Shown here in pieces: positions 44,034 to 59,089 of a stretch of DNA of 64,000 nt. The stretch's first letter is position 1; each line of letters starts with the position of its first letter. The stretch lies in NCBI GenBank assembly GCA_947501625.1, contig CANMWN010000004.1, forward strand, positions 186,001-250,000, written 5' to 3'. The notes beneath the pieces are model-generated. The model was not told the origin of the DNA, ran no database searches, and saw nothing but the letters and a program-made list of their open reading frames with translations. Source of the stretch: an uncultured Flavobacteriaceae bacterium. GTDB taxonomy: Bacteria; Bacteroidota; Bacteroidia; Flavobacteriales; Flavobacteriaceae. The position numbers and the translations under genes were made by a program.

Positions 44034-45227
44034 ATGAGTAATACATTTTCAAAAACTTCTATTTTATTAAAAAAAGTTCTACATCGTAAAGAAGTACAAC
44101 TCGTTTTATATTTTCAATACAATCAAAGTCTTATTGATAAGATTAAAAAAATTCCTGGATTCAAATGGAGTAAAACATTGAGAGGTTGGTACATTTTATA
44201 TACCAATGACAACATAGCGGTTTTTAATAAAGAATTTTCAAAAGAAGAATATGACTTAAAATATCACGATTCCATTTATCAGAAAATAGAATTAAAAGTA
44301 ACAAGGAAACCACGAAAAATATCAGAAGAAAACAAAAATATTCTTCGAGGATATGTCAAATATCTAAAAGGAAGAAAATATAGTGAAAGTACTGTAAAAA
44401 CTTATTTTACTTTCATTGCCGATTTCATTGATTATATCAAAGACAAGCCTTTAAATAAATTAACAAATCGCGATGTAGAAAAATTTACTGAAGATGTATT
44501 TGTACCAAGAAAATATAGCGTAAATACGTACCGGCAAATGATAAGTGCCATTAAATTATTTAAAGAATTTTATCCATCTTGTGCCATTGACAACCTAAAA
44601 CTAAGAAGACCTCATAAAAGTAAAATTCTACCAAGTGTGTTGTCTCAAGAAGAAGTTTTTGATTTATTACGCTCTACAAAAAACTTAAAACACCGAGCCA
44701 TATTAGCATTGATTTATTCTAGCGGATTGCGAGTTGGCGAATTAATAAACTTGCAATTAAGACATATAGATATTGATCGAAGACAGTTACTGATAAAAAA
44801 TGCAAAAGGTAGAAAAGATAGATATGTAGTACTGGCAGATAGTTTTTTACCCTTATTACAAAACTATTTTTTTACCTATAGACCTGAATTATATTTTGTT
44901 GAAGGTGAAAAATCTAAAAAATATTCGGCAAGTAGTATTCGAAAATTTCTAAATCGTTCTTGTAATATTGCTAAGATTACTAAAAAAGTAACTCCACACA
45001 CGCTTAGACATAGTTATGCAACACATTTATTAGAAAATGGAATTGGACTAAGACATATTCAAGAATTATTAGGACACTCAAAACCAGAAACGACAATGAT
45101 TTATACACATGTTGCAAAAAAAGACTTGTTGGACGTAAAAAGTCCTCTAGACACCCTACTTTTATCACTAACAAAAAACGGTAAACAGGAACAAAAGTTC
45201 CTTTTATCCGGAAATATGAACCCATAA
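44034..45227 (+). CDS. Tyrosine recombinase of the cassette array, with HARP-like N-terminal domain
   Basis: Site-specific tyrosine recombinase (397 residues). Catalytic residues: Arg233 (GLRVGE), Lys258 (AKGRKDR), His322 and Arg325 (HTLRH), His348 (LGHSK) and nucleophile Tyr357 (MIYTHV). The core-binding SAM-like domain is at about 104-183. The extra N-terminal 85 residues contain FQYNQSLIDKIKKIPGFKWS then GWYI, a pattern like the HARP domain of fork-remodelling ATPases. The long insertion that integron integrases carry before HTLRH is missing. The gene points toward the array, whose first unit begins 28 bp past its stop; classical intI genes point away. It is the likely enzyme of the array, but XerC-like roles elsewhere cannot be excluded. 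Confidence 0.88.
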   Translation: MSNTFSKTSILLKKVLHRKEVQLVLYFQYNQSLIDKIKKIPGFKWSKTLRGWYILYTNDNIAVFNKEFSKEEYDLKYHDSIYQKIELKVTRKPRKISEENKNILRGYVKYLKGRKYSESTVKTYFTFIADFIDYIKDKPLNKLTNRDVEKFTEDVFVPRKYSVNTYRQMISAIKLFKEFYPSCAIDNLKLRRPHKSKILPSVLSQEEVFDLLRSTKNLKHRAILALIYSSGLRVGELINLQLRHIDIDRRQLLIKNAKGRKDRYVVLADSFLPLLQNYFFTYRPELYFVEGEKSKKYSASSIRKFLNRSCNIAKITKKVTPHTLRHSYATHLLENGIGLRHIQELLGHSKPETTMIYTHVAKKDLLDVKSPLDTLLLSLTKNGKQEQKFLLSGNMNP

Positions 45228-45267
45228 AAGAGTATTTTAGTACTTTTATAACGAGTTGAAGCACATT
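45228..45267 (+). other. Candidate primary attachment site (attI-like) at the recombinase end
   Basis: Between the recombinase stop and the first repeat unit lie 27 bp with a small hairpin (AAAAGAGTA...GTACTTTT). Then follows GTTGAAGCACATT (45255-45267), which recurs at 50675-50687 after the last unit. The G|TT at 45255/45256 would be the cleavage point by analogy with integrons. Confidence 0.5.
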
Positions 45268-45607
45268 CAGCAAAGCTGAACTTTTGTTTCTTCGTGCTTC
45301 GCACTCCCATCCCAAAAGATTGTGCTTCAACAGACCTGCTAAACCAAATTATTTAGTATAGTGATATTTAAAATTAATATCACCTTTGCTGGGCATCGAG
45401 CCAAAACGATGCACCAACTTTTACTAAACATAATTTGGCTCTGCAATTTTTGCTCCCAATAATCGAAATTTGGCAAATAACGCAAGACTCGCTTGCTATT
45501 CGATAAATTATTATCAGATTGATATAGGAAGTCTAATATCTGATAATAATTGCCCAAATTCCTTATATTTACTCAAAAATTACAGAACTACGTTTAGCAG
45601 GTCTGTT
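45255..45607 (+). repeat. R unit, copy 1 (353 bp, geneless, foldable)
   Basis: Read as a cassette, it starts GTTGAAGCACA (45255-45265), whose complement TGTGCTTCAAC is at 45321-45331; the 55-bp body between holds hairpin TTCAGC-AAA-GCTGAA. The rest is bounded by a 16-bp inverted repeat, AACAGACCTGCTAAAC (45329-45344) and GTTTAGCAGGTCTGTT (45592-45607). Branch A: 45344-45358 with 45422-45438, enclosing GTGATATT/AATATCAC (45361-45383) and GCATCG/CGATGC (45393-45412). Branch B: AATTTGGCAA (45467) with TTGCCCAAATT (45550), enclosing GCAAG/CTTGC and AATTATTATCAGA/TCTGATAATAATT (45506-45551). Confidence 0.9.
45539..45571 (+). promoter_or_regulatory. Possible outward promoter in the R unit (five copies)
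   Basis: TATATTTA (45564-45571) differs from TAnnTTTG by one base; TCTG (45539-45542) lies 21 nt upstream, one mismatch from TTTG. It points into the next cassette, whose gene starts 26-46 bp past each R unit. The same site is present in every R copy. Weak but well placed. Confidence 0.35.
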
Positions 45608-46609
45608 CTACGCAATTTGACTAACCATTAAACCCAGAGAATAAATTGACAATTTTTTACATAATATTAGCATTAGTCGGAATTTTTGTGATTTTCGGAG
45701 TAATTGGAACTATTCAAGAAAAGAATAATCCAAAACTGAAAGAATCTAAATCGACTAATAAACCTCAAAGTCGGACAAATAAAACTTTGCCGACTGTTCA
45801 ACAATTAGTTGATGAAGTAAAAACAATCGAGGATTTTAAAAAGTTAAGAACTGCTTTCAATCGAGCGGAAAAAAGTTACGAAAACAGTCAAACTGACAAT
45901 CCGCAAGTTGAGAGAAAATACAGAATTTACGATGATGCTTTTTGGAAAGCGAGTGACAAAACTCTTTATCTACAATTCGTTCCTGATTTGGATTTAAATA
46001 TGTCAAAAGAAAAAATCGAAAATGCGTATAAAATCATACCAATTGCGGAATATGAAACTGTACGGAATGAAATTGGCGGAACTGAATACGAATGGATTGA
46101 AATATCTGCAAACGACTTTATTGAAAAGGAATTTGAGAAAAAACCAATGTATTTTGACAGTTTGCCAAAGTTTCAGTTAATATCAAATGACACCGAAAAA
46201 ACATACGAGGAAAAAATAGAGTTGATAAACGAATTTGGAAAATCGAATAAACCGTTTGTTGACGAATTTTTTCACGGACTTAAACCAAATGAACTCGGAA
46301 TCGAATGGATTAAGGAAAAGTTACAGGAATTTGGAATTCCTATGGTTGACAAAGTTTATGAACTTGGTTACACAACACCAAAAAAAGTTTTGGAAATTGA
46401 CCTTGAGGAAATGAAAAACATCAGCGGATTTGGACCAAAGAAAATTGAGCAATTAAAACAAGCAATCGAACGAATAAAAACTGCGTAGAACAACGTGTAT
46501 AATTAATGGCTAGTTCTCGCCTACTTACGAAAATCCTCGCGGATTTTCTATCCAGTTTTTATTTGCTAAATTAGGTGCTTAAACACGCCACTAATCATAC
46601 ACAAAACCG
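45606..46609 (+). mobile_element. Gene cassette V1 (1,004 bp)
   Basis: From TT after R copy 1 to G before R copy 2. Start GTTCTACGCA (45605-45614) is the exact complement of TGCGTAGAAC (46482-46491) at the gene end. One gene fills the unit. Confidence 0.75.
45646..46488 (+). CDS. V1 cassette protein: membrane-anchored, helix-hairpin-helix end
   Basis: A 280-residue protein of unknown function. An N-terminal hydrophobic segment (IFYIILALVGIFVIFGVIG) would anchor it in the membrane. A polar middle follows, and the last 40 residues form a helix-hairpin-helix (LEEMKNISGFGPKKIEQLKQ), usually a DNA-binding or protein-contact element. The start is TTG 39 bp after the R unit; no ATG precedes the membrane segment. 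Its TAG stop lies inside the recombination site. Arg codons CGA and CGG look more frequent than in flanking genes, which suggests foreign origin. Confidence 0.65.
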   Translation: MTIFYIILALVGIFVIFGVIGTIQEKNNPKLKESKSTNKPQSRTNKTLPTVQQLVDEVKTIEDFKKLRTAFNRAEKSYENSQTDNPQVERKYRIYDDAFWKASDKTLYLQFVPDLDLNMSKEKIENAYKIIPIAEYETVRNEIGGTEYEWIEISANDFIEKEFEKKPMYFDSLPKFQLISNDTEKTYEEKIELINEFGKSNKPFVDEFFHGLKPNELGIEWIKEKLQEFGIPMVDKVYELGYTTPKKVLEIDLEEMKNISGFGPKKIEQLKQAIERIKTA

Positions 46610-46611
46610 TT
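46482..46611 (+). repeat. attC-like site of cassette V1
   Basis: Outer arm TGCGTAGAAC pairs with the cassette's own start. Inner arms GTGTATAATTAATGG and CCACTAATCATACAC pair with two G-T type changes. Near the tip is hairpin GAAAATCC-TCGC-GGATTTTC (46529-46548). The site ends CCG|TT at 46609/46610. Confidence 0.75.
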
Positions 46612-46961
46612 GAAGCACATTCAGCAAAGCTGAACTTTTGTTTCTTCGTGCTTCGCACTCCCATCCCAAAAGATTGTGCTTCAACAGACCTGCTAAACCA
46701 AATTATTTAGTATAGTGATATTTAAAATTAATATCACCTTTGCTGGGCATCGAGCCAAAACGATGCACCAACTTTTACTAAACATAATTTGGCTCTGCAA
46801 TTTTTGCTCCCAATAATCGAAATTTGGCAAATAACGCAAGACTCGCTTGCTATTCGATAAATTATTATCAGATTGATATAGGAAGTCTAATATCTGATAA
46901 TAATTGCCCAAATTCCTTATATTTACTCAAAAATTACAGAACTACGTTTAGCAGGTCTGTT
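46609..46961 (+). repeat. R unit, copy 2
   Basis: Identical to copy 1 over all 353 bases by eye. Lies between cassettes V1 and V2. Confidence 0.9.
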
Positions 46962-47006
46962 GGCAATAATTTGAGAAAACCGAAATCCGAATCTGAATTT
47001 GTGAAT

Positions 47007-47369
47007 ATGACTGAAATTCCTTTACTGACTTTTGACAAACTATTTGAGTTGGTTGAGGAAAATCGATTTGAAAACGAAACTGACAGAAAGATTGCGGAAA
47101 AGATACTCGAAGTGGAAAATGATTGGGGAGATTGGAAAACCTCTGTCAAGAATTTAAATGAATTTATTATTGCATTGGAAAAAGAAGTTAGCGGAACTGT
47201 AACCAAATCAAGTTTGAATAAACTCTTGAAAAAATATAATCGGAATATTGCTCAAAATGCTTGGGAAGCAGAAACCGTTAGTTCTTTATTAGAAATTTTT
47301 GAGTTGACTAAAGAAACGGAATTGAGAAAAATATTTATCGAACTGACTAAAAAAAATAGAATGGAGTAA
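47007..47369 (+). CDS. V2 cassette protein 1, unknown function
   Basis: A 120-residue acidic, helical protein (LTFDKLFELVEENRFENETD; IFELTKETELRKIFIELTKK) with no recognised domain. The frame is open back into the R unit; the ATG at 47007 is the first after the cassette boundary (a GTG lies at 47001). The next gene starts on the base after its stop, so the pair may work together. Confidence 0.55.
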   Translation: MTEIPLLTFDKLFELVEENRFENETDRKIAEKILEVENDWGDWKTSVKNLNEFIIALEKEVSGTVTKSSLNKLLKKYNRNIAQNAWEAETVSSLLEIFELTKETELRKIFIELTKKNRME

Positions 47370-47768
47370 ATGGAACTTTACGATTTTAATAAAGATGCTT
47401 ATAATAAAGTTGTTGAATTAGTTAAATTTAGGTTCTACAAGCAAATTAAAGATACTGGAATTGTTTTTAAAGAAATTTTATTATCCAAAAATCTAGTAAC
47501 AAAAAACGAGTTCTATATTTTAGTTTGTAATGACCAAGAAAATAACCATTACATAAGATTTAAAAATTCCAAAGTACTTTTCATCAGATTAAAACAAATT
47601 GCTGAAAAAAGATTAAATAAACTAGAATTGTTCGAAAAGAAACTATTGGAAATAAATGACACTGAATCTTATGGAGAATCACGTTATTTTAATGACACCG
47701 AAATGACAGCAATTGGAATATCAACGATAAAAGATTTATTGAATCATTTTGACAATAAACTGAAATAA
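47370..47768 (+). CDS. V2 cassette protein 2, unknown function
   Basis: A 132-residue protein, directly after the first gene (TAA then ATG). Lys/Glu/Phe-rich, with FYILVCNDQENNHYIRFKNS and IRLKQIAEKRLNKLELFEKK. No family recognised. A two-protein module such as toxin-antitoxin is possible from the arrangement only. Confidence 0.55.
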   Translation: MELYDFNKDAYNKVVELVKFRFYKQIKDTGIVFKEILLSKNLVTKNEFYILVCNDQENNHYIRFKNSKVLFIRLKQIAEKRLNKLELFEKKLLEINDTESYGESRYFNDTEMTAIGISTIKDLLNHFDNKLK

Positions 47769-47773
47769 AAAAC

Positions 47774-47905
47774 TATTGCCAACAATGTGTATAATTCATT
47801 ACTAGTTATAGTCTAATTACGAAAGTCCTCGCAGACTTTCTATCTGTGATTTATTTGCTAACTATAGTGCTTAAACCACGCAACGAAATCATACACTAGA
47901 CCGTT
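47774..47905 (+). repeat. attC-like site of cassette V2
   Basis: Outer arm TATTGCCAAC; inner arm GTGTATAATTC faces GAAATCATACAC. The tip hairpin is GAAAGTC-CTCGCA-GACTTTC (47821-47840); compared with V1 both sides have changed together. Ends CCG|TT at 47903/47904. Confidence 0.75.
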
Positions 47906-48255
47906 GAAGCACATTCAGCAAAGCTGAACTTTTGTTTCTTCGTGCTTCGCACTCCCATCCCAAAAGATTGTGCTTCAACAGACCTGCTAAACCAAATTAT
48001 TTAGTATAGTGATATTTAAAATTAATATCACCTTTGCTGGGCATCGAGCCAAAACGATGCACCAACTTTTACTAAACATAATTTGGCTCTGCAATTTTTG
48101 CTCCCAATAATCGAAATTTGGCAAATAACGCAAGACTCGCTTGCTATTCGATAAATTATTATCAGATTGATATAGGAAGTCTAATATCTGATAATAATTG
48201 CCCAAATTCCTTATATTTACTCAAAAATTACAGAACTACGTTTAGCAGGTCTGTT
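47903..48255 (+). repeat. R unit, copy 3
   Basis: Identical to copy 1 over all 353 bases by eye. Lies between cassettes V2 and V3. Confidence 0.9.
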
Positions 48256-48931
48256 GTGCGTCATTTTTGAGAAAGACAGAATGCTAATTAAAAAATACAC
48301 CTCGAATTGGATTAAAAATTTTGCGGACTTAAAACGTGAGATTGAAAATGGATTAAACGGACTTAAATGTCACATTGAACACGTTGGCAGTACTTCAATC
48401 CCTAATTTGGATTCTAAACCAATAATAGATATTGATATTATTTATGATAATGAGTCCGAATTTGAAAAAATCAAATCTGGATTAATAAAAATCGGTTATT
48501 ATCATAATGGAAACCAAGGAATTGAAAAACGAGAAGTTTTTAAGCGAGACGGAAATTCATCGAACGGAATTTTGGATTCAATTCCCCATCACCTTTATGT
48601 TTGTCCAAAGAATAGTGAATCCTTGGAAAGACACATTCTGATGCGGAATTTTTTAAGGAAAAATGATTGGGCTAGATTGAAATATCAGGAAATGAAATAT
48701 GAACTAGCAGAAAAAGCAAATCAGAATAAAAAACTGTATGCAGAATTGAAAGAATTGAATGTTAATGAATTTATTGACGAAATTATAAAGAAAGAAAAAA
48801 CGAACGCACAACAACGTGTATAATACATTGCTTCTGCTGGATAAGACGATGATCTTTGTGTGCTTTTTACTATATTGTAACTGCGGAAAATTAATCGCGT
48901 ACTTGACCGCAACAAACCATACACGTGCACG
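48254..48931 (+). mobile_element. Gene cassette V3 (678 bp)
   Basis: Start GTTGTGCGT (48253-48261) is the complement of ACGCACAAC (48804-48812). One gene. Confidence 0.75.
48281..48823 (+). CDS. V3 cassette protein: GrpB-family protein
   Basis: A 180-residue GrpB-like protein, a family with a nucleotidyltransferase fold: GLKCHIEHVGSTSIPNLDSK with the Asp pair PIIDIDIIYD, then PHHLYVCPKNSESLERHILM. The substrate is unknown. The frame is open from 48254, but the ATG at 48281 gives the family N-terminus. The last codons (NAQQRV) are encoded by the recombination site itself. Confidence 0.8.
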   Translation: MLIKKYTSNWIKNFADLKREIENGLNGLKCHIEHVGSTSIPNLDSKPIIDIDIIYDNESEFEKIKSGLIKIGYYHNGNQGIEKREVFKRDGNSSNGILDSIPHHLYVCPKNSESLERHILMRNFLRKNDWARLKYQEMKYELAEKANQNKKLYAELKELNVNEFIDEIIKKEKTNAQQRV

Positions 48932-48933
48932 TT
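48804..48933 (+). repeat. attC-like site of cassette V3
   Basis: Outer arm ACGCACAAC; inner arms CGTGTATAATACATTGC and GCAACAAACCATACACG pair at both ends with a mismatched centre. The central part is unlike V1, V2 and V4. Ends CACG|TT at 48931/48932. Confidence 0.7.
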
Positions 48934-49283
48934 GAAGCACATTCAGCAAAGCTGAACTTTTGTTTCTTCGTGCTTCGCACTCCCATCCCAAAAGATTGTG
49001 CTTCAACAGACCTGCTAAACCAAATTATTTAGTATAGTGATATTTAAAATTAATATCACCTTTGCTGGGCATCGAGCCAAAACGATGCACCAACTTTTAC
49101 TAAACATAATTTGGCTCTGCAATTTTTGCTCCCAATAATCGAAATTTGGCAAATAACGCAAGACTCGCTTGCTATTCGATAAATTATTATCAGATTGATA
49201 TAGGAAGTCTAATATCTGATAATAATTGCCCAAATTCCTTATATTTACTCAAAAATTACAGAACTACGTTTAGCAGGTCTGTT
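48931..49283 (+). repeat. R unit, copy 4
   Basis: Identical to copy 1 over all 353 bases by eye. Lies between cassettes V3 and V4. Confidence 0.9.
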
Positions 49284-50325
49284 GTGCGTCATTTAAGAAA
49301 AACTGAAAACAAAGGAAATTGAGTTGGATAAATAAAATATTTGGAACAAATAAGGTAGAGAAAATTCCAACTCGAAAAATTGACTATATCCAAATAACAA
49401 AGGATTGGAACGCTGACCCAGTTTCGCCTGAAATTGAATTAAAAGTGGACGGAATTGACTTGATAATGGATATTTATCTTAATCATTTTCAATTCGACAA
49501 ATATCAAGAAGGAGATAAAGTCAAAATCCGATTTAAAAACTGTTCGGAATATTCTCTAAATACTTGCAATGACGAAGGGTATTTTTATGGACAATATAGA
49601 ACAAATCACAACGAATTACCTTGGGGAGAATTCTATGAAATTAAAAGCGGATTAGATAAAGAGTTACCAGTTCCAATTCAGAGAATACAAAGCGACAATT
49701 CGGACAGAAAACATTTCATATTCTTTTTTAAGGACGAGACATTCGAATGCCTTGCTTCTGACTATTATTTAGATTTTTACAACGAAAAGGTGCTAAAAAG
49801 TTGTAAAAAAACCTATAATGTAGTTTTGGAAGATAAAGAAATTGGAACTTCAAAACTCGAAAAAGCAGATGCACCAATGGGAGTTGCTTTTGGACGAATC
49901 GAATTTAATGTAATTGAAAATCCATACAAATTCATTAAAGAATATTGCTTGGGAAATAATATTGTAATAAATGAAGACGACACAGAATTCGAATTTATTG
50001 ATACTCAAGTAATATCAGAACTAAAAGTATTCAGACAAGATGGACTTGAAATAAAAGGAGTTGCTGGAAATGCAATTACAGGAATGAAAGATGAAGGATA
50101 TGAAATCTCAATTTTGGGAATTAGTTACCCATTTTACGAAGAGGAATTTCCTCATCACGTAGAACACTATAAAAATATGTTTAAGGAATAAAAAACGAAC
50201 GCACAACAATGGCTATAAGTAATTGCTTGTTCTCGCCTACTTCTGAAAATCCTCGCGGATTTTCAGTTTGGTGTGTACTTGCAAAGTTTCGTGCTAACAC
50301 ACGCAACTACTCATAGCCGAGACCG
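49282..50325 (+). mobile_element. Gene cassette V4 (1,044 bp)
   Basis: Start GTTGTGCGT (49281-49289) is the complement of ACGCACAAC (50199-50207). It shares its outer arms with V3 although the genes are unrelated. Confidence 0.75.
49319..50191 (+). CDS. V4 cassette protein, unknown function
   Basis: A 290-residue soluble-looking protein with no family I can name. It is rich in Asp, Glu and aromatic residues (VSPEIELKVDGIDLIMDIYL; DEGYFYGQYRTNHNELPWGE; FFKDETFECLASDYYLDFYN) and predicted mostly beta. The start is TTG 36 bp after the R unit, as in V1. It may be an immunity or stress protein, but nothing shows this. Confidence 0.6.
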   Translation: MSWINKIFGTNKVEKIPTRKIDYIQITKDWNADPVSPEIELKVDGIDLIMDIYLNHFQFDKYQEGDKVKIRFKNCSEYSLNTCNDEGYFYGQYRTNHNELPWGEFYEIKSGLDKELPVPIQRIQSDNSDRKHFIFFFKDETFECLASDYYLDFYNEKVLKSCKKTYNVVLEDKEIGTSKLEKADAPMGVAFGRIEFNVIENPYKFIKEYCLGNNIVINEDDTEFEFIDTQVISELKVFRQDGLEIKGVAGNAITGMKDEGYEISILGISYPFYEEEFPHHVEHYKNMFKE

Positions 50326-50327
50326 TT
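50199..50327 (+). repeat. attC-like site of cassette V4
   Basis: Outer arm ACGCACAAC; inner arms GGCTATAAGTAATTGC and GCAACTACTCATAGCC. The base pairs differ from V1 (GGCTAT/ATAGCC against GTGTAT/ATACAC), so pairing is kept while sequence changes. Tip hairpin CTGAAAATCC-TCGC-GGATTTTCAG at 50243-50266. Ends CCG|TT at 50325/50326. Confidence 0.75.
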
Positions 50328-50677
50328 GAAGCACATTCAGCAAAGCTGAACTTTTGTTTCTTCGTGCTTCGCACTCCCATCCCAAAAGATTGTGCTTCAA
50401 CAGACCTGCTAAACCAAATTATTTAGTATAGTGATATTTAAAATTAATATCACCTTTGCTGGGCATCGAGCCAAAACGATGCACCAACTTTTACTAAACA
50501 TAATTTGGCTCTGCAATTTTTGCTCCCAATAATCGAAATTTGGCAAATAACGCAAGACTCGCTTGCTATTCGATAAATTATTATCAGATTGATATAGGAA
50601 GTCTAATATCTGATAATAATTGCCCAAATTCCTTATATTTACTCAAAAATTACAGAACTACGTTTAGCAGGTCTGTT
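50325..50677 (+). repeat. R unit, copy 5
   Basis: Identical to copy 1 over all 353 bases by eye. It is the last unit; its end runs into GTTGAAGCACATT (50675-50687). Confidence 0.9.
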
Positions 50678-50838
50678 GAAGCACATTAAAACGTTCACCA
50701 ACTTCGTATATAATTCATTGCTCTTTCAGCACTTTTTATAGTCAATTAAGCTATTTCTGGCAATCAACTTTAAAAAAGTTGAACAAAAGCATCTTAATAT
50801 TCGCTATGAAAATATTTAGTCTAATAAGAAATTTCGTT
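50676..50838 (+). other. Right flank of the array, possible decayed cassette end
   Basis: No gene. It opens with TTGAAGCACATT like an R unit, then departs. TTCGTATATAATTCATTGC at about 50703-50721 resembles the inner arm of the V sites, but no clear partner or matching outer arm is present. An 8-bp hairpin (TCAACTTT-AAA-AAAGTTGA, 50764-50782) follows. Confidence 0.4.
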
Positions 50839-52223: not shown

Positions 52224-52290
52224 ATAAATCTAAATTGTGATACTAATATTTTGAGATTTAGTTTGATGCTTTTTTTATAAACAAATGTCT

Positions 52291-52349
52291 TTCCTGCGAA
52301 GGCAGGAATCCATAAGTAGTTTGTGTTTAGATTCCTGCCTTCGCAGGAA
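52291..52349. repeat. REP-like 20-bp perfect inverted repeat
   Basis: TTCCTGCGAAGGCAGGAATC (52291-52310) and its exact complement (52330-52349) with a 19-nt loop lie between two divergent genes. It is GC-rich against its surroundings and has the form of repetitive palindromes frequent in flavobacterial genomes. Confidence 0.7.
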
Positions 52350-52456
52350 TGACAATATCAAATAATCCCACTTCACTAACTCAAACGGATACTTCACTCA
52401 TTCACTCAAATTTTAGGTATAACTTTTGCTATCTTTACAATATCAAACATTGAATT

Positions 52457-55400
52457 ATGAAAAAACTGCTATTAATTTTATTTGCTTTTATGTCAACAAT
52501 ACCACAATCAAACTCTCAAAATCGATTTAATAATTACATAAACGATTGGGAGAAAGTATATGCTCATGAATTGGAATTATTACCAAAATCAGCATTAAAT
52601 GAAGTTGAAAAAATTTATCAAAAAGCTACAAATGAGAAGAATGCACCTCAACTTATTAAATCGCTGATTTATAAGTCAAAGTTTGCATTAATGCTAGAAG
52701 AAGATGCGCAATTAAAAGTAATCAATGATTTTAAAAATGAAATAGCCAAAAATGAAATACCAACAGCCAACATCTTAGAAAGTTTACTTGCCGATATGTA
52801 CTGGCAATATTTTCAACAAAATAGATGGAAGTTTTATAACCGAACAAAAACACAAGAGAAAGTTGATCCAAATGATTATAGAACTTGGGATTTACAAACC
52901 ATTTTTGAAGAATCTCATAAGCATTATCAAAATTCTTTAAACAGTAGTTTAGAATTACAACAAGTTGGTTTAACTCAATTCAACGATATTTTAGAATTAC
53001 GATTGAACTCCAAAGAATATCGACCAACTTTATATGACTTCTTAGCACATAGAGCAATAGAATTTTATAAAATTGAAGAGCAAAATATTACAAAACCTTC
53101 TTACAAATTTGAAATTGATGATGTAAATTATTTGAAAAACAATAGTGATTATATAAAAACAACTATTGAATCAAAGGACAGTTTATCTCAACATTTACAT
53201 GCGTTAAAGCTATATAAAAATTTAACCTTGTTTCACCTAAAAGACAAGAACCCAAAAGCCCTAGTAAAATTGACTTTAGATAGACTAAATTTTGTCAAGG
53301 CAAACACTATCATTGAAAACAAAGATGAAATTTACTTAAACACTTTAAATCAATTAAAAGACACCTATAAAGACAATGAAATCTCAACTGAAATAGCGTT
53401 TATCATTGCAAGTCTATATAACACTCAGGCAAACCTATATGACCCAAAAACTAATGATACAAATAGATTCAAGAGAAAAGAAGCATTAGAGATATGCGAA
53501 GGTGCAATCAAAACATTTCCAAAATCGTTGGGTGCCAAAAGATGTAGAGAATTAAAAAATCAAATTTTATCAAAAAACTTAGCAATTACTGCTGAGAAAT
53601 ATATTCCTATTGACAAGCCTTCTCGCCTACTCATTAATTATAAAAATACTGACAACCTTTATTTCACTTCTTTCCATATATCTAAAGTAGCACAAAAAAG
53701 ATTTAATAAAATTCGCAATGATTCCGCAAAAGTTGCATTTATCAACAAGTTAAAACCTATTCAAAAATGGGAATCTTCACTACGCAACGAACATGATTAC
53801 CAACAACACACTACCGAAGTTTTATTTCCACAACATGAACAAGGAAATTATCTAATTGTTGCAACTACTGATGGAGATTTGGCTAAAGGTAAAACTTGGG
53901 CGCAAACATTTTTGCAGATTACTAATTTGGCATTGGTAGAAAATTCTAATAACGGATTATATAACTACCAAGTAGTTGATAGAAATACTGGAAAACCAAT
54001 AGAAGGAGCGAAAATTAATCTTAAAAACTATAATACCAATAAATACAATAAAAAAATTAATCGAAACTTTGTAAGTGATACAAAAGGGCAATTTTCTTTT
54101 AAAAGTCGTACACAATATAGAAATGTAGTTGTCACCATAAATCACAAAGATGACAATGCTACTTTTGGTGATTATTACTTATATGAATATTATAAAGAGA
54201 AAATAAGGGAAGATAAAACCTACAATATAAAACCATTCATTTTTACCGACAGAAGTATTTACCGTCCAGGACAAACAGTTCATTTTAAAACAATCGTATT
54301 AAAAAGACAAGGAATTAAATCTGAATTACTAACACAAAATACTATCGAATTTATATTAAAAAACCCAAATGGTGAAATTGTAAATAAATTAGATTTAAAA
54401 TTAAATGAATTTGGTGCTGCTTCTGGCGAATTTATCTTACCCAATAATGGCTTGACAGGTCAATATTCATTTGAATTAAATATTGATTCAAAAGCCAATA
54501 ATGATTATTGGAAAGTATTTCAATTCAATTTACAAGATAACCATCATTACTTTTCAGTAGAAGAATACAAACGTCCAAAGTTTGAAACAACATTTAAACC
54601 TGTAACTGAAACCTACAAACTAAATGACAGCATAACCGTTCACGGAACAGCCAACGCTTTTGCAGGAAGTTCAATTTCTGATGCTAAAGTTACTTACAGA
54701 GTTGTGAGAACTGCTCAATTTCCTCGTTGGTATGGTTGGTATTCAAGAAGACCTTCTATTAGTAGTGACGAGCAAGAAATAACTCACGGAGAAACGATGA
54801 CGGATGCTTCAGGAAATTATGAAATTACGTTTAAAGCAATTCCTGATTTAAAAGTTTCTAAAGAATCTCAACCAACATTTAGATACAAGGTTTTTGCTGA
54901 TGTTACTGATATCAACGGCGAAACTAGAAGTACTGAAACAACTATCAAAGTTGGTTATCATGCTTTAACTGCCAATGTTGAAATTGACGATAAAATCAAT
55001 AAAAATTTAAAAGACAATTCGTTTTCAATTGATACTAAAAACTTAAATGAAGAATTTGTTCCAACCAAAGGAACTATCAAAATCTATAAATTAGAAGCAC
55101 CAAATAAACCGCAACGAAAAAGACCTTGGAATGCTCCCGATTATGCTGGATTCTCTGAAATTCAATTTCGCCAAATATTCCCAAACGACCCTTTTAATGA
55201 TGATGAAAGTGATGCTAACAAATGGGAAAACGGAAAATTGGTGTATGATAAATCTTTCGACACTGGTAAAAACAAAAAATATGATTTCAAATCAAAAAAA
55301 TGGGCTTCTGGAAAGTATAAAATCATATTAGAATGCAAAGATAAGTTTGGTCAATTGGTAAAAGACGAACAACAATTTGATATCTATAGCAGTAAAGATT

Positions 55401-58400
55401 CTAAAGTTGCAGACAGCAAATTGTTCTTTATCAATACTGATAAAACGTCTTACAAACCAAACGAACTAGTAGAACTAACTGTTGGTTCTGCTTCCAAAGA
55501 TTTAACTGCAACCATAACAGTAGAGAAGAAAAATAAAATTGTTTCAACACATTTAGTGCATTTGAACAACGAAACAAAAACAATCAAAATTCCAGTTTCA
55601 AAAGATGATTTAGGAGGATTTTCCATCAAGTACTATTTTGTGAACTATAACAGTTTTGAAAAAGGGAATATCAATATTGTAGTTCCTTACAAATCAAATG
55701 ATTTATTGATTGAAACACTCACATTTAGAGATAAGTTACAACCTGGAAGTGAGCAAACATGGAGTTTTAAAATTAAAGGAAACAAGAATGAAAAAGTGAC
55801 TTCAGAGTTATTGGCTTCTATGTATGATGCTTCTTTAGATGAGTTTAAATCTCATAATTGGTCATTCAATCCAATTCAAAGAAGAAACTATTATTCGTAT
55901 GGAAACAGTACAGCCAATCATAGTTTTGGTACGCAGCGATTTAATATAAGAAACCAACACAGGAATTATTATAACAACTATTACGACACGCAAGGTTATG
56001 ATGCCATAAAATGGTTTGGCTTTAGCATGAATAATAACCGTTGGTCAAATGATCAATATTTATCCAAGTTAACTTCTAAAAGAACAGAATTTGATAAAAC
56101 TATAACTGGAAATGTTCAAGATGAACATGGACCACTTCCTGGAGTGTCTGTTATCATAAAAGGAACTGCCTTTGGAACTGTTACTGACTTTGATGGAAAC
56201 TATGCTATCAATGTTAAGAACTCAGATATTTTAACCTATAGTTTTGTAGGTATGTCAACTGTTGAGAAAAAAATTGGAGATTCTTCAACAATAAACGTTT
56301 TACTTGAAGTAAACGATGATATACTTGAAGAAGTAGTAATAACTGCTTATGGAACTGGTAGATCTAAAAAAAGAAATTCCACTTATGCAGTTGAAAGTAT
56401 TAGCAATGATGAACTAGCATTTGCAAGAGAAGAAAATAAATCTGTTGGTACTTCTTCAAGAATAGTTTTAAGAGGAGCAAGTTCTATTATTACTAGAGAT
56501 AATGAACCTCTGTATGTTATCGACGGTATCCTTGTAGAAAATTACAAAGAAGATGGAACTATTAATCCTGATGATATAGTATCTATAAATGTACTCAAAG
56601 GTCCTCCTGCAGCAGCCTTATACGGAATTCGTGCTGCAAATGGAGTCATAGAAATCACTACAAAATCTGGACAAGCAAAAATAGATGCAGAATTATCTAA
56701 AGTGCAAACACGCAAAAACCTGCAAGAAACTGCCTTTTTCTTTCCGCATTTAAGAACAGATGAAGAAGGAAACGTAAGTTTTGACTTTACAGTTCCTGAG
56801 GCATTGACACGCTGGAAAATGCAATTACTGGCACATAGCAAAGATTTAAAAACTGCGACAAAAACTTTGACAACTGTTACTCAAAAAGATTTGATGGTAT
56901 TGCCAAATCCGCCACGTTTTTTAAGAGAAGGTGATGAAATTATTTTCTCAAGTAAAATATCTAACCTAACTGATAAAAACCTCAACGGTTTTGCTCAATT
57001 ACAATTGGTAGACGCTATTACAGGAAAAGAAATAAACGATTTACTAAGCAATACTGAGAAGAATAAAAACTTTACGCTAGATGCTAAAGGGAATACGAAT
57101 GTGAGTTGGTCTTTAAAAATTCCGATGAACAAAGTACAAGCAGTTCAATATAAAATTGTGGCAAAAGCAGGAGATTTTTCTGACGGAGAACAAAATGCGT
57201 TGCCTGTTTTATCAAACAGAATGTTGGTGACTGAAACACTTCCAATGTGGATTAAAAGCAACGAAACAAAAACATTCACTTTGGATAAATTGAAGAACAA
57301 CACTTCAACAACATTGAGTAATCATAAATTAACGCTTGAAGTAACTTCAAATCCTGCATGGTATGCAGTTCAGGCTTTGCCATACTTGATGGAATATCCT
57401 TATGAATGTGCTGAGCAAACATTCTCTCGTTATTATGCCAATGCGTTGGCAAGTCATATTGCAAATGCTAATCCAAGAATACAAGAAGTATTCAATCAGT
57501 GGGCCTCAGCCGAGGCATTAATTTCTAATTTAGAGAAAAATCAAGAATTAAAGTCCTTGATTATTCAAGAAACTCCTTGGTTGAGAGATGCACAAAGTGA
57601 AACGGAACAAAAGAAACGTATTGCTTTATTGTTTGATTTAAACAAGATGAAAAATGAATCGGAAAGTGCTATCAACAAACTAAAACAAATGCAGTTTAGC
57701 AATGGTGGTTTCCCATGGTTCAAAGGAAGTAAATACCCAAACAGATACATTACACAACATGTTGCTACAGGTTTTGGACATTTGAATAAATTAGGAATCA
57801 AAAATGATGACAAAGCAACAAAAATGATTCATAAATCTGTAACTTTTTTAGATGAAGACATTGTCGATGATTATAAAAAACTATTAGAACGAGCGGCTGA
57901 AATTCGTGAAAAAGCAAAGACTAAATCTAAAGGATTAAAAGACGAAAAAGACTTTTTAGCAAAACAACATATCAGTTATTTTCAATTGCAATATTTATAC
58001 ATGCGTAGTTTTTATCCTGAAATAAAAATGAATGACAAAACCAAAACTGCAGTTGATTATTATATGGATCAGTCTGAAACGTATTGGAAAAAGTTCAATT
58101 TGTATTCTAAAGGAATTATCGCCTTAGTTCAATATAGAAATAACAATCAACAGTTGGCTTCTAAAATTTTAAAATCATTAAAAGAAAATAGTACTACCAA
58201 TGAAGAATTAGGCATGTATTGGAAATCTAACTCTCCAAGTTGGTATTGGTATCAAGCGCCAATAGAAACGCAAGCATTGATGATTGAAGCATTTGCCGAA
58301 ATTGAAAACGATATAGAGACTATTGATAATTTAAAAATTTGGTTATTAAAGAACAAACAAACCAATCGTTGGGAAACAACCAAAGCCACCACTGAAGCAG

Positions 58401-59089
58401 TTTATGCACTATTATTACAAGGAAGTGATTGGCTAGAAGTAACCGATTTTATGGATGTGAAAATTGGTGAGCAAGTTATTGATCCTCTTGCGCTTAAAGA
58501 CACGAAAATTGAGGCAGGAACTGGCTATTTCAAAACATCATTTGATAGTAATGAAATAACTCCAGAAATGGCAACTGTTACTCTAGAAAAAGATAGTGAT
58601 GGAATTGCTTGGGGAGCAATATATTGGCAATATTTTGAGGATTTAGATAAAATTACACATGCAGAAACTCCATTAAAATTATCAAAGAAACTATTCTTAA
58701 AACAGCATACTGATAAGGGCGAAGAGTTATCTTTAATTACTGATGAAACTTCATTAAAAATAGGAGATTTAGTGCGAGTGCGAATAGAATTAAAAGTAGA
58801 TAGAGAAATGGAGTTTGTACATATGAAAGATATGAGAGCCTCAGGTTTTGAGCCTGTAAATGTATTATCAAAATACAAATATCAAGATGGTTTAGGGTAT
58901 TATGAAAGTACTAAAGATGCAAGCACCAATTTCTTTTTTGACCGACTTCCAAAAGGTGTTTATGTCTTTGAACATGACTTAAGAGTTAATAATGCTGGTG
59001 ATTTTTCAAACGGTATAACTACTATTCAAAGTATGTATGCTCCAGAGTTTTCAAGTCACAGTGAAGGTATTCGTGTAAAAATAAAATAA
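52457..59089 (+). CDS. Alpha-2-macroglobulin-like protein with embedded TonB-plug segment
   Basis: Giant exported protein of 2,210 residues with a signal peptide (about 1-21) and no lipobox. The N-terminal third is helical; MG-type beta domains follow (TDRSIYRPGQTVHFKTIVLK near 600). The alpha-2-macroglobulin bait and thioester parts are near 1427-2210, with CAEQ at 1651-1654, the thioester motif. Between them, residues about 1213-1405 are a carboxypeptidase-regulatory-like domain (ITGNVQDEHGPLPGVSVIIK) and a TonB plug (SSRIVLRGASSIITRDNEPL, PDDIVSINVLKGPPAAALYG), very like the SusC protein at 22769, without a barrel. Such proteins may trap proteases at the envelope. Confidence 0.88.
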   Translation: MKKLLLILFAFMSTIPQSNSQNRFNNYINDWEKVYAHELELLPKSALNEVEKIYQKATNEKNAPQLIKSLIYKSKFALMLEEDAQLKVINDFKNEIAKNEIPTANILESLLADMYWQYFQQNRWKFYNRTKTQEKVDPNDYRTWDLQTIFEESHKHYQNSLNSSLELQQVGLTQFNDILELRLNSKEYRPTLYDFLAHRAIEFYKIEEQNITKPSYKFEIDDVNYLKNNSDYIKTTIESKDSLSQHLHALKLYKNLTLFHLKDKNPKALVKLTLDRLNFVKANTIIENKDEIYLNTLNQLKDTYKDNEISTEIAFIIASLYNTQANLYDPKTNDTNRFKRKEALEICEGAIKTFPKSLGAKRCRELKNQILSKNLAITAEKYIPIDKPSRLLINYKNTDNLYFTSFHISKVAQKRFNKIRNDSAKVAFINKLKPIQKWESSLRNEHDYQQHTTEVLFPQHEQGNYLIVATTDGDLAKGKTWAQTFLQITNLALVENSNNGLYNYQVVDRNTGKPIEGAKINLKNYNTNKYNKKINRNFVSDTKGQFSFKSRTQYRNVVVTINHKDDNATFGDYYLYEYYKEKIREDKTYNIKPFIFTDRSIYRPGQTVHFKTIVLKRQGIKSELLTQNTIEFILKNPNGEIVNKLDLKLNEFGAASGEFILPNNGLTGQYSFELNIDSKANNDYWKVFQFNLQDNHHYFSVEEYKRPKFETTFKPVTETYKLNDSITVHGTANAFAGSSISDAKVTYRVVRTAQFPRWYGWYSRRPSISSDEQEITHGETMTDASGNYEITFKAIPDLKVSKESQPTFRYKVFADVTDINGETRSTETTIKVGYHALTANVEIDDKINKNLKDNSFSIDTKNLNEEFVPTKGTIKIYKLEAPNKPQRKRPWNAPDYAGFSEIQFRQIFPNDPFNDDESDANKWENGKLVYDKSFDTGKNKKYDFKSKKWASGKYKIILECKDKFGQLVKDEQQFDIYSSKDSKVADSKLFFINTDKTSYKPNELVELTVGSASKDLTATITVEKKNKIVSTHLVHLNNETKTIKIPVSKDDLGGFSIKYYFVNYNSFEKGNINIVVPYKSNDLLIETLTFRDKLQPGSEQTWSFKIKGNKNEKVTSELLASMYDASLDEFKSHNWSFNPIQRRNYYSYGNSTANHSFGTQRFNIRNQHRNYYNNYYDTQGYDAIKWFGFSMNNNRWSNDQYLSKLTSKRTEFDKTITGNVQDEHGPLPGVSVIIKGTAFGTVTDFDGNYAINVKNSDILTYSFVGMSTVEKKIGDSSTINVLLEVNDDILEEVVITAYGTGRSKKRNSTYAVESISNDELAFAREENKSVGTSSRIVLRGASSIITRDNEPLYVIDGILVENYKEDGTINPDDIVSINVLKGPPAAALYGIRAANGVIEITTKSGQAKIDAELSKVQTRKNLQETAFFFPHLRTDEEGNVSFDFTVPEALTRWKMQLLAHSKDLKTATKTLTTVTQKDLMVLPNPPRFLREGDEIIFSSKISNLTDKNLNGFAQLQLVDAITGKEINDLLSNTEKNKNFTLDAKGNTNVSWSLKIPMNKVQAVQYKIVAKAGDFSDGEQNALPVLSNRMLVTETLPMWIKSNETKTFTLDKLKNNTSTTLSNHKLTLEVTSNPAWYAVQALPYLMEYPYECAEQTFSRYYANALASHIANANPRIQEVFNQWASAEALISNLEKNQELKSLIIQETPWLRDAQSETEQKKRIALLFDLNKMKNESESAINKLKQMQFSNGGFPWFKGSKYPNRYITQHVATGFGHLNKLGIKNDDKATKMIHKSVTFLDEDIVDDYKKLLERAAEIREKAKTKSKGLKDEKDFLAKQHISYFQLQYLYMRSFYPEIKMNDKTKTAVDYYMDQSETYWKKFNLYSKGIIALVQYRNNNQQLASKILKSLKENSTTNEELGMYWKSNSPSWYWYQAPIETQALMIEAFAEIENDIETIDNLKIWLLKNKQTNRWETTKATTEAVYALLLQGSDWLEVTDFMDVKIGEQVIDPLALKDTKIEAGTGYFKTSFDSNEITPEMATVTLEKDSDGIAWGAIYWQYFEDLDKITHAETPLKLSKKLFLKQHTDKGEELSLITDETSLKIGDLVRVRIELKVDREMEFVHMKDMRASGFEPVNVLSKYKYQDGLGYYESTKDASTNFFFDRLPKGVYVFEHDLRVNNAGDFSNGITTIQSMYAPEFSSHSEGIRVKIK

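Follow-up and report, generated by a model that had tools for sequence, protein, structure and literature searches.

Why should every gene cassette of a bacterial array begin with the exact reverse complement of a sequence near the end of its own gene? The question is raised by a locus in the window analysed here, a stretch of 64,000 nucleotides from an uncultured Flavobacteriaceae bacterium (GCA_947501625.1, contig CANMWN010000004.1, positions 186,001 to 250,000, forward strand), in which a tyrosine recombinase gene is followed by an attI-like site, by units in the order C-V1-C-V2-C-V3-C-V4-C, and then by a degenerate end (Table 1). The host is a Lutibacter-like flavobacterium and the array is chromosomal. 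We conclude that the region is very probably an integron-type cassette array with an attC-like site in each cassette, and that the recombinase, which lacks the insertion (the "patch") specific to integron integrases, can be proposed to act like IntI.

A sequence-only reading had claimed that each V unit starts with the exact reverse complement of an arm of its own, and all four pairs are found at exact coordinates. V1 starts with GTTCTACGCA and carries TGCGTAGAAC at 46482-46491, V2 pairs GTTGGCAATA with TATTGCCAAC at 47774-47783, and both V3 and V4 start with GTTGTGCGT, with ACGCACAAC at 48804-48812 and 50199-50207, respectively. The first 9-10 nt of each V unit are thus the reverse complement of its own attC-like R'' arm. 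When a V unit is shuffled, its first 9 nt have a reverse complement somewhere inside it in about 1% of cases. An arm pair in four V units out of four therefore greatly exceeds what chance would give; V3 and V4, which share their arms, do not count as independent cases. The C units also have their own pair (in C unit 1, GTTGAAGCACA at 45255-45265 and TGTGCTTCAAC at 45321-45331). The second V arm is not at the far end of the unit: it is the beginning of an imperfect palindrome of ~120 nt with which the unit ends, in the same way as R'' begins an attC. This palindrome consists of R'' ending in AAC, a spacer, L'' (GTGTAT...), a variable loop, L' (...ATACAC), a second spacer and G^TT (the caret indicates the junction between array units). 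In V1, for example, R'' TGCGTAGAAC is followed by the spacer AAC, L'' GTGTAT..., L' ...ATACAC, the spacer AAAACC and the core G^TT. The unpaired central spacers measure 2-3 nt and 5-6 nt, and both the R''-L''-L'-R' architecture of attC and its AAC and GTT ends are present.

Is the pairing a rule beyond this window? Thirty-nine related integrase loci were taken as relatives. A scan for attC by the L boxes alone returned many false matches away from arrays, and its place was taken by a covariance model (R1) that leaves out the R arms. R1 was trained on the bottom strands of 37 attC, each running from AAC to GTT. Downstream of the integrases (163 kb) it found 77 sites, all in the integrase's orientation, and none in the 370 kb searched upstream, which served as the negative control. 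With cassettes defined by this arm-free model and an arm match defined as at least 5 of the 7 positions after GTT, R'' matches the start of its own cassette in 68/70 cases (34/35 among sites outside the model), and that of the physically adjacent cassette in only 9/70; shuffled starts match in 12%. The complete congeneric genome G001 carries 97 attC on one strand over 77.5 kb, ending at a patch-less integrase (L143-L146, G001:C1:163883-241436), and there the own start is matched in 91 of the 97 cassettes and the neighbour's in 8. The idea would have been refuted by cassettes lacking complementary ends more often than by chance, and only 2/70 and 6/97 are without a match. Covariation of the outer arms, which the same reading had proposed to look for, is indeed found: across cassettes, arm positions 4-8 show a Watson-Crick pairing of 0.95-0.96 and use 3-4 pair types, and the value falls to 0.25-0.51 when the neighbouring cassette is used instead. 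The two arms, supposed to meet in the circular cassette as the outer stem of one hairpin, do so in 44 of 46 circular-junction folds. Within G001, a gene-less cassette of ~450 nt present in 35 copies comes with four arm sets (GTTCTC, GTTGCC, GTTGGG, GTTAGG) and a matching R'' in 34/35; it is a natural compensatory-change series. Own-arm pairing is not a new feature. It is a known property of integron attC, in which self-pairing covers 9-11 nt and so exceeds the 7-nt R boxes, conservation is limited to AAC/GTT, and the bottom strand is used (PMC2727003). The integron that carries it here is, however, not an ordinary one.

The strand that folds can also be read from the sites. When circular-junction attC are folded as DNA, the bottom strand is the more stable in 45/46 (mean -27.9 versus -23.8 kcal/mol; Wilcoxon p 4e-9). 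Among L-stem mismatches, 150 are A.C on the top strand, that is, G.T wobbles on the bottom strand, and 4 are the reverse (p 2e-39); the former cluster at stem positions 7/8 and 12, and arm position 11 likewise has an A.C-on-top mismatch in 56/70. Fold energies and mismatch asymmetry together imply that selection has kept the bottom strand foldable. In classical attC, extrahelical bases on the L'' arm direct strand choice (PMC2727003). An extra base on this arm was found in 0/69 attC, and a possible single extra base on the L' arm in 14/69.

The same data bear on other explanations of the palindromes. The matching ends could be terminal inverted repeats of small transposons resembling miniature inverted-repeat transposable elements (MITEs), read as double-stranded DNA by a transposase, and the C units, which are mobile, multi-copy and bounded by perfect inverted repeats (AGACCTGCTAAAC / GTTTAGCAGGTCT), do have this appearance. 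But double-strand repeats would be strand-symmetric, contrary to the 150:4 bias for bottom-strand G.T; the second V arm is internal, ~120 nt before the unit end, no target duplication is seen, and every site has a tyrosine recombinase upstream of it. This leaves the explanation highly improbable. Even less credit can be given to the view that the palindromes are transcription terminators or top-strand RNA hairpins, the arm match being a by-product. One would then expect a G.U excess on the transcribed strand, and the opposite is found: a top-strand RNA would bear the A.C mismatches, and the top strand folds worse in all but one of the 46 sites. The palindromes do fold well and stand behind each gene in the sense orientation. 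A terminator, however, gives no account of why the arm pairs with its own cassette's start, up to ~1 kb upstream, and an Rfam search of the array gave no match.

A canonical integron with a standard, merely divergent IntI would account for attI, attC, cassettes, own-arm pairing and bottom-strand folding alike; it is the enzyme, and details of the sites, that make it very unlikely. The catalytic residues of the recombinase are R233, H322, R325, H348 and Y357, and R, H, R, H and Y are aligned in all family members. The IntI-specific insertion is absent throughout the family: KGRKDR and HxLRH are separated by 64-65 aa in nearly all members versus 106 in IntI1, the only IntI in the alignment. Correspondingly, the integron-integrase profile TIGR02249 splits into two stretches on the window recombinase, leaving positions 178-237 unmatched. 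The sites not only lack the L'' extra base; the core consensus GTTRRRY is found in just 3 of 57 non-redundant cassette starts. A patch-bearing IntI acting in trans was looked for in the host genome (G000), where no protein passes the TIGR02249 cut-off, so that no other integron integrase is on hand. This genome does encode other Xer-like recombinases. By sequence and structure the window recombinase is closest to XerA and IntI4, and its match to NF040815 (218.8 bits) is 1.2 bits below the cut-off of 220. The attC cassettes that follow its gene speak against a dif role in chromosome dimer resolution.

What, then, could take the place of the patch? In the VchIntIA structure (2A3V), the patch reportedly touches the extrahelical bases. 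The flavobacterial recombinase has an extra small alpha/beta domain at residues 8-77, confidently predicted (predicted local distance difference test, pLDDT, 86). In a Foldseek search with this domain, the ten best PDB matches are all XPB or SMARCAL1 HARP substrate-recognition domains, albeit weak ones (E 0.04-0.6, TM 0.33-0.44). The best match to Pfam HARP is in a distant family member (L048; 4e-5, 23.5 bits versus a cut-off of 25), and the window recombinase gives E 0.27. XPB and HARP domains read DNA structure, and we hypothesize that the N-terminal domain reads the attC hairpin in place of the IntI insertion. The recombinase would excise and insert cassettes by means of a folded bottom-strand attC and a double-stranded attI, as IntI does. 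Because both the IntI insertion and the L'' extrahelical bases are absent, strand choice would be ensured by G.T wobbles at fixed stem positions and by the asymmetric 3/6-nt central spacer, possibly with the help of the HARP-like domain. The broader proposal, that flavobacteria have a second, largely unrecognised integron class in which a HARP/XPB-like hairpin-reading domain and fixed-position wobbles replace the IntI insertion and the extrahelical bases, is put forward tentatively, at somewhat less than even chances.

A candidate attI lies next to the integrase gene. In about 25 flavobacterial relatives the integrase stop codon is immediately followed by the motif TATATT(T/A)G...ATATAACnAG^TT, and cassettes come next wherever the contig goes on; the crossover point within this conserved motif is putative. 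Most relatives also have a TATATTTG/TATATTAG-like box in the attI-like site, a candidate cassette promoter (Pc).

The C units are best read as a multi-copy cassette family in which each member is little more than an attC. The five copies of the window are identical over 350 nt; they contain no gene and have a stem without central spacer, whose fold is much better on the bottom strand (-130 versus -107 kcal/mol with RNA parameters). Further copies, some close and some distant, are found in the rest of the host genome, which has 9, and in other genera (21/149 genomes, with 21 copies in one of them). C arms and first L stem covary, 14/22 pairs being changed on both sides (0/500 shuffles), and in three other genomes 25/25 C-type matches directly abut a V-type attC. 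A MITE nature of the C unit was rejected, as every C tested abuts an attC and the arms covary like cassette arms. The C units would be moved as gene-less cassettes by the same recombinase system. It is tempting to go further and suppose that they are promoter cassettes for the gene cassette that follows, which would explain why C and V alternate so strictly. Flavobacterial promoters have a consensus different from that of sigma-70. The first C unit has a flavobacterial -7-like box (TATATTTAC) at 45564, a TAnnTTT-like box ~40 nt before the junction is kept in C units of 8 lineages despite their differing stem sequences, a similar box occurs in the attI-like site of most relatives, and a co-oriented cassette follows most C copies. 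However, a -33 TTG at the usual distance is missing, several C copies stand at the end of their array (L009, L054, L059-L061, L065), simple insertion of C at V attC sites would equally produce the alternation, and the far stronger bottom-strand folding points to selection on that strand. The promoter function is a guess, possible but rather unlikely. Some further features of C-type units may be mentioned. The C-type cassettes of genome G153 (L062, L073, L077, L079) have the core GAT/ATC instead of GTT/AAC, a compensatory change in the most conserved attC bases. The upstream part of L073 (G153a) has a short variant in which the inner hairpin is mostly deleted and both arms and the L stem are kept. 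A C-type GGGAGTGCGnAGCACG segment on the minus strand at L061:1521-1613 weakly resembles Clostridiales-1 RNA, at 29 bits versus a gathering score of 48.

How widespread is the system? Of the 149 Flavobacteriaceae genomes sampled, almost every one from a different genus, 130 have R1 matches at E 1e-5 or better, as do 47/148 Bacteroidota genomes, where the matches are strongest in Flavobacteriaceae; close integrase relatives (E 1e-60) are present in 71/149 of the Flavobacteriaceae genomes. The integron type is common in flavobacteria and seems overlooked, as it is without the parts used for recognition. The window copy of the integrase looks sedentary, since trkH lies directly 5' of it in the host genome and in two relatives; its nearest named relative is that of Lutibacter sp. 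NORP37 (90% identity). A plasmid of Chryseobacterium sp. SNU WT5 (L103:11974-22095, NZ_CP041688.1) carries a related integrase and five attC, which suggests that the integron-type system can be mobile; this array is broken up by an IS110-family transposase and a group II intron. Nine further attC lie away from the integrase in G000 (C1:399694, C1:613536, C2:102776, C2:103490, C2:130952, C3:40927, C3:167748, C5:40185, C1:380612), in small integrase-less clusters, some adjoining solitary C units. In a sister species (L054, G006:C3), trkH is followed by cassettes, and the short stretch between them has no integrase match, possibly owing to loss of the integrase.

Several points weigh against the integron reading as a whole. 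The recombinase has no insertion of the kind held essential for integron function (PMC8138268). The resemblance of its N-terminal domain to HARP is weak, the profile match being below the Pfam cut-off. Since attC occur in many more genomes than close relatives of the integrase, some arrays may be orphaned or served by more distant enzymes. Cassette excision and integration by the enzyme are proposed on the basis of sequence and statistics.

Table 1. Features of the cassette array in the window (coordinates are window positions; ORF, open reading frame)
Feature	Coordinates	Strand	Remarks
Tyrosine recombinase	44034..45227	+	397 aa; Pfam Phage_integrase 1.9e-36
attI-like site TATTTTAGTACTTTTATAACGAG^TT	45228..45257	+	Directly after integrase stop codon; putative, motif common to relatives
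C unit 1, gene-less cassette	45255..45604	+	Arms GTTGAAGCACA / TGTGCTTCAAC; long bottom-strand hairpin
V1 cassette	45605..46608	+	ORF 45646-46488: N-terminal hydrophobic segment, weak HhH domain
V1 attC	about 46482..46611	+	R1 118.9 bits, E 8.5e-20; fold
C unit 2	46609..46958	+	Identical to C unit 1
V2 cassette	46959..47902	+	ORFs 47007-47369 and 47370-47768, function unknown; attC 47774-47905, R1 102.3 bits
C unit 3	47903..48252	+	Identical to C unit 1
V3 cassette	48253..48930	+	ORF 48281-48823, GrpB family (Pfam GrpB 1.2e-37); attC 48804-48933, R1 81.1 bits
C unit 4	48931..49280	+	Identical to C unit 1
V4 cassette	49281..50324	+	ORF 49319-50191, function unknown; attC 50199-50327, R1 108.4 bits
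C unit 5	50325..50674	+	Identical to C unit 1
Degenerate array end	50675..50790	+	Cassette-like start GTTGAAGCACATT fused to attC-like 5' part (CCAACTTCGTATATAATTCATTGC); read directly, not an R1 match

The function of the cassette genes is mostly unknown (Table 1). Farther downstream, a 25-bp near-perfect inverted repeat of the TTCCTGCGAAGGCAGGAA type (52286-52354) lies between a Mur-ligase-like gene and the next gene; it resembles a dispersed repeat and has no relation to the cassette array. Positions 52457-59089 encode an alpha-2-macroglobulin-like protein of 2210 aa with, by eye, an apparent carboxypeptidase-regulatory-like and TonB-plug-like insert.

The IntI insertion is considered specific to integron integrases (PMC8138268) and has been used to find them (PMC9668308, PMC2426708); IntegronFinder 2.0 requires an IntI-specific profile (PMC9668308). 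Integrons are thus defined and searched by a part that the flavobacterial family lacks while bearing every array-level mark of an integron. If its recombinase recombines these sites, integrons will have to be redefined and recounted, a large hidden pool of cassettes will be added to those of abundant environmental bacteria, and a comparison of two solutions can then test what reads a folded attC. We found no earlier mention of flavobacterial integrons in the literature, although journals outside our search may contain one.

Among known systems, the integron of Salinibacter ruber M1 belongs to the same phylum and is the complete integron of Bacteroidetes according to IntegronFinder 2.0 (PMC9024848); that a survey should name this species would be explained by the fact that a patch-based search misses the patch-less flavobacterial family. 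The integrases of Treponema integrons were identified as intI homologues, whereas the flavobacterial family members are all without the patch. Archaeal XerA and the family NF040815 ("site-specific tyrosine recombinase/integron integrase") are the best match, in sequence and fold, to the catalytic part and likewise have no patch, but XerA is known as a chromosome-dimer-type enzyme without cassettes or attC, and the flavobacterial recombinase has an array attached. The array itself is most readily compared with the Vibrio cholerae superintegron (IntI4/VchIntIA and the Vibrio cholerae repeats, VCR). Both combine a tyrosine recombinase and an attI with dozens of cassettes per array, as in G001; the cassettes are co-oriented, each has a single attC, and in both systems the arms pair within a cassette and the bottom strand folds. 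The flavobacterial system differs in being without the IntI insertion, the L'' extrahelical bases and the GTTRRRY core, and in having an extra N-terminal domain.

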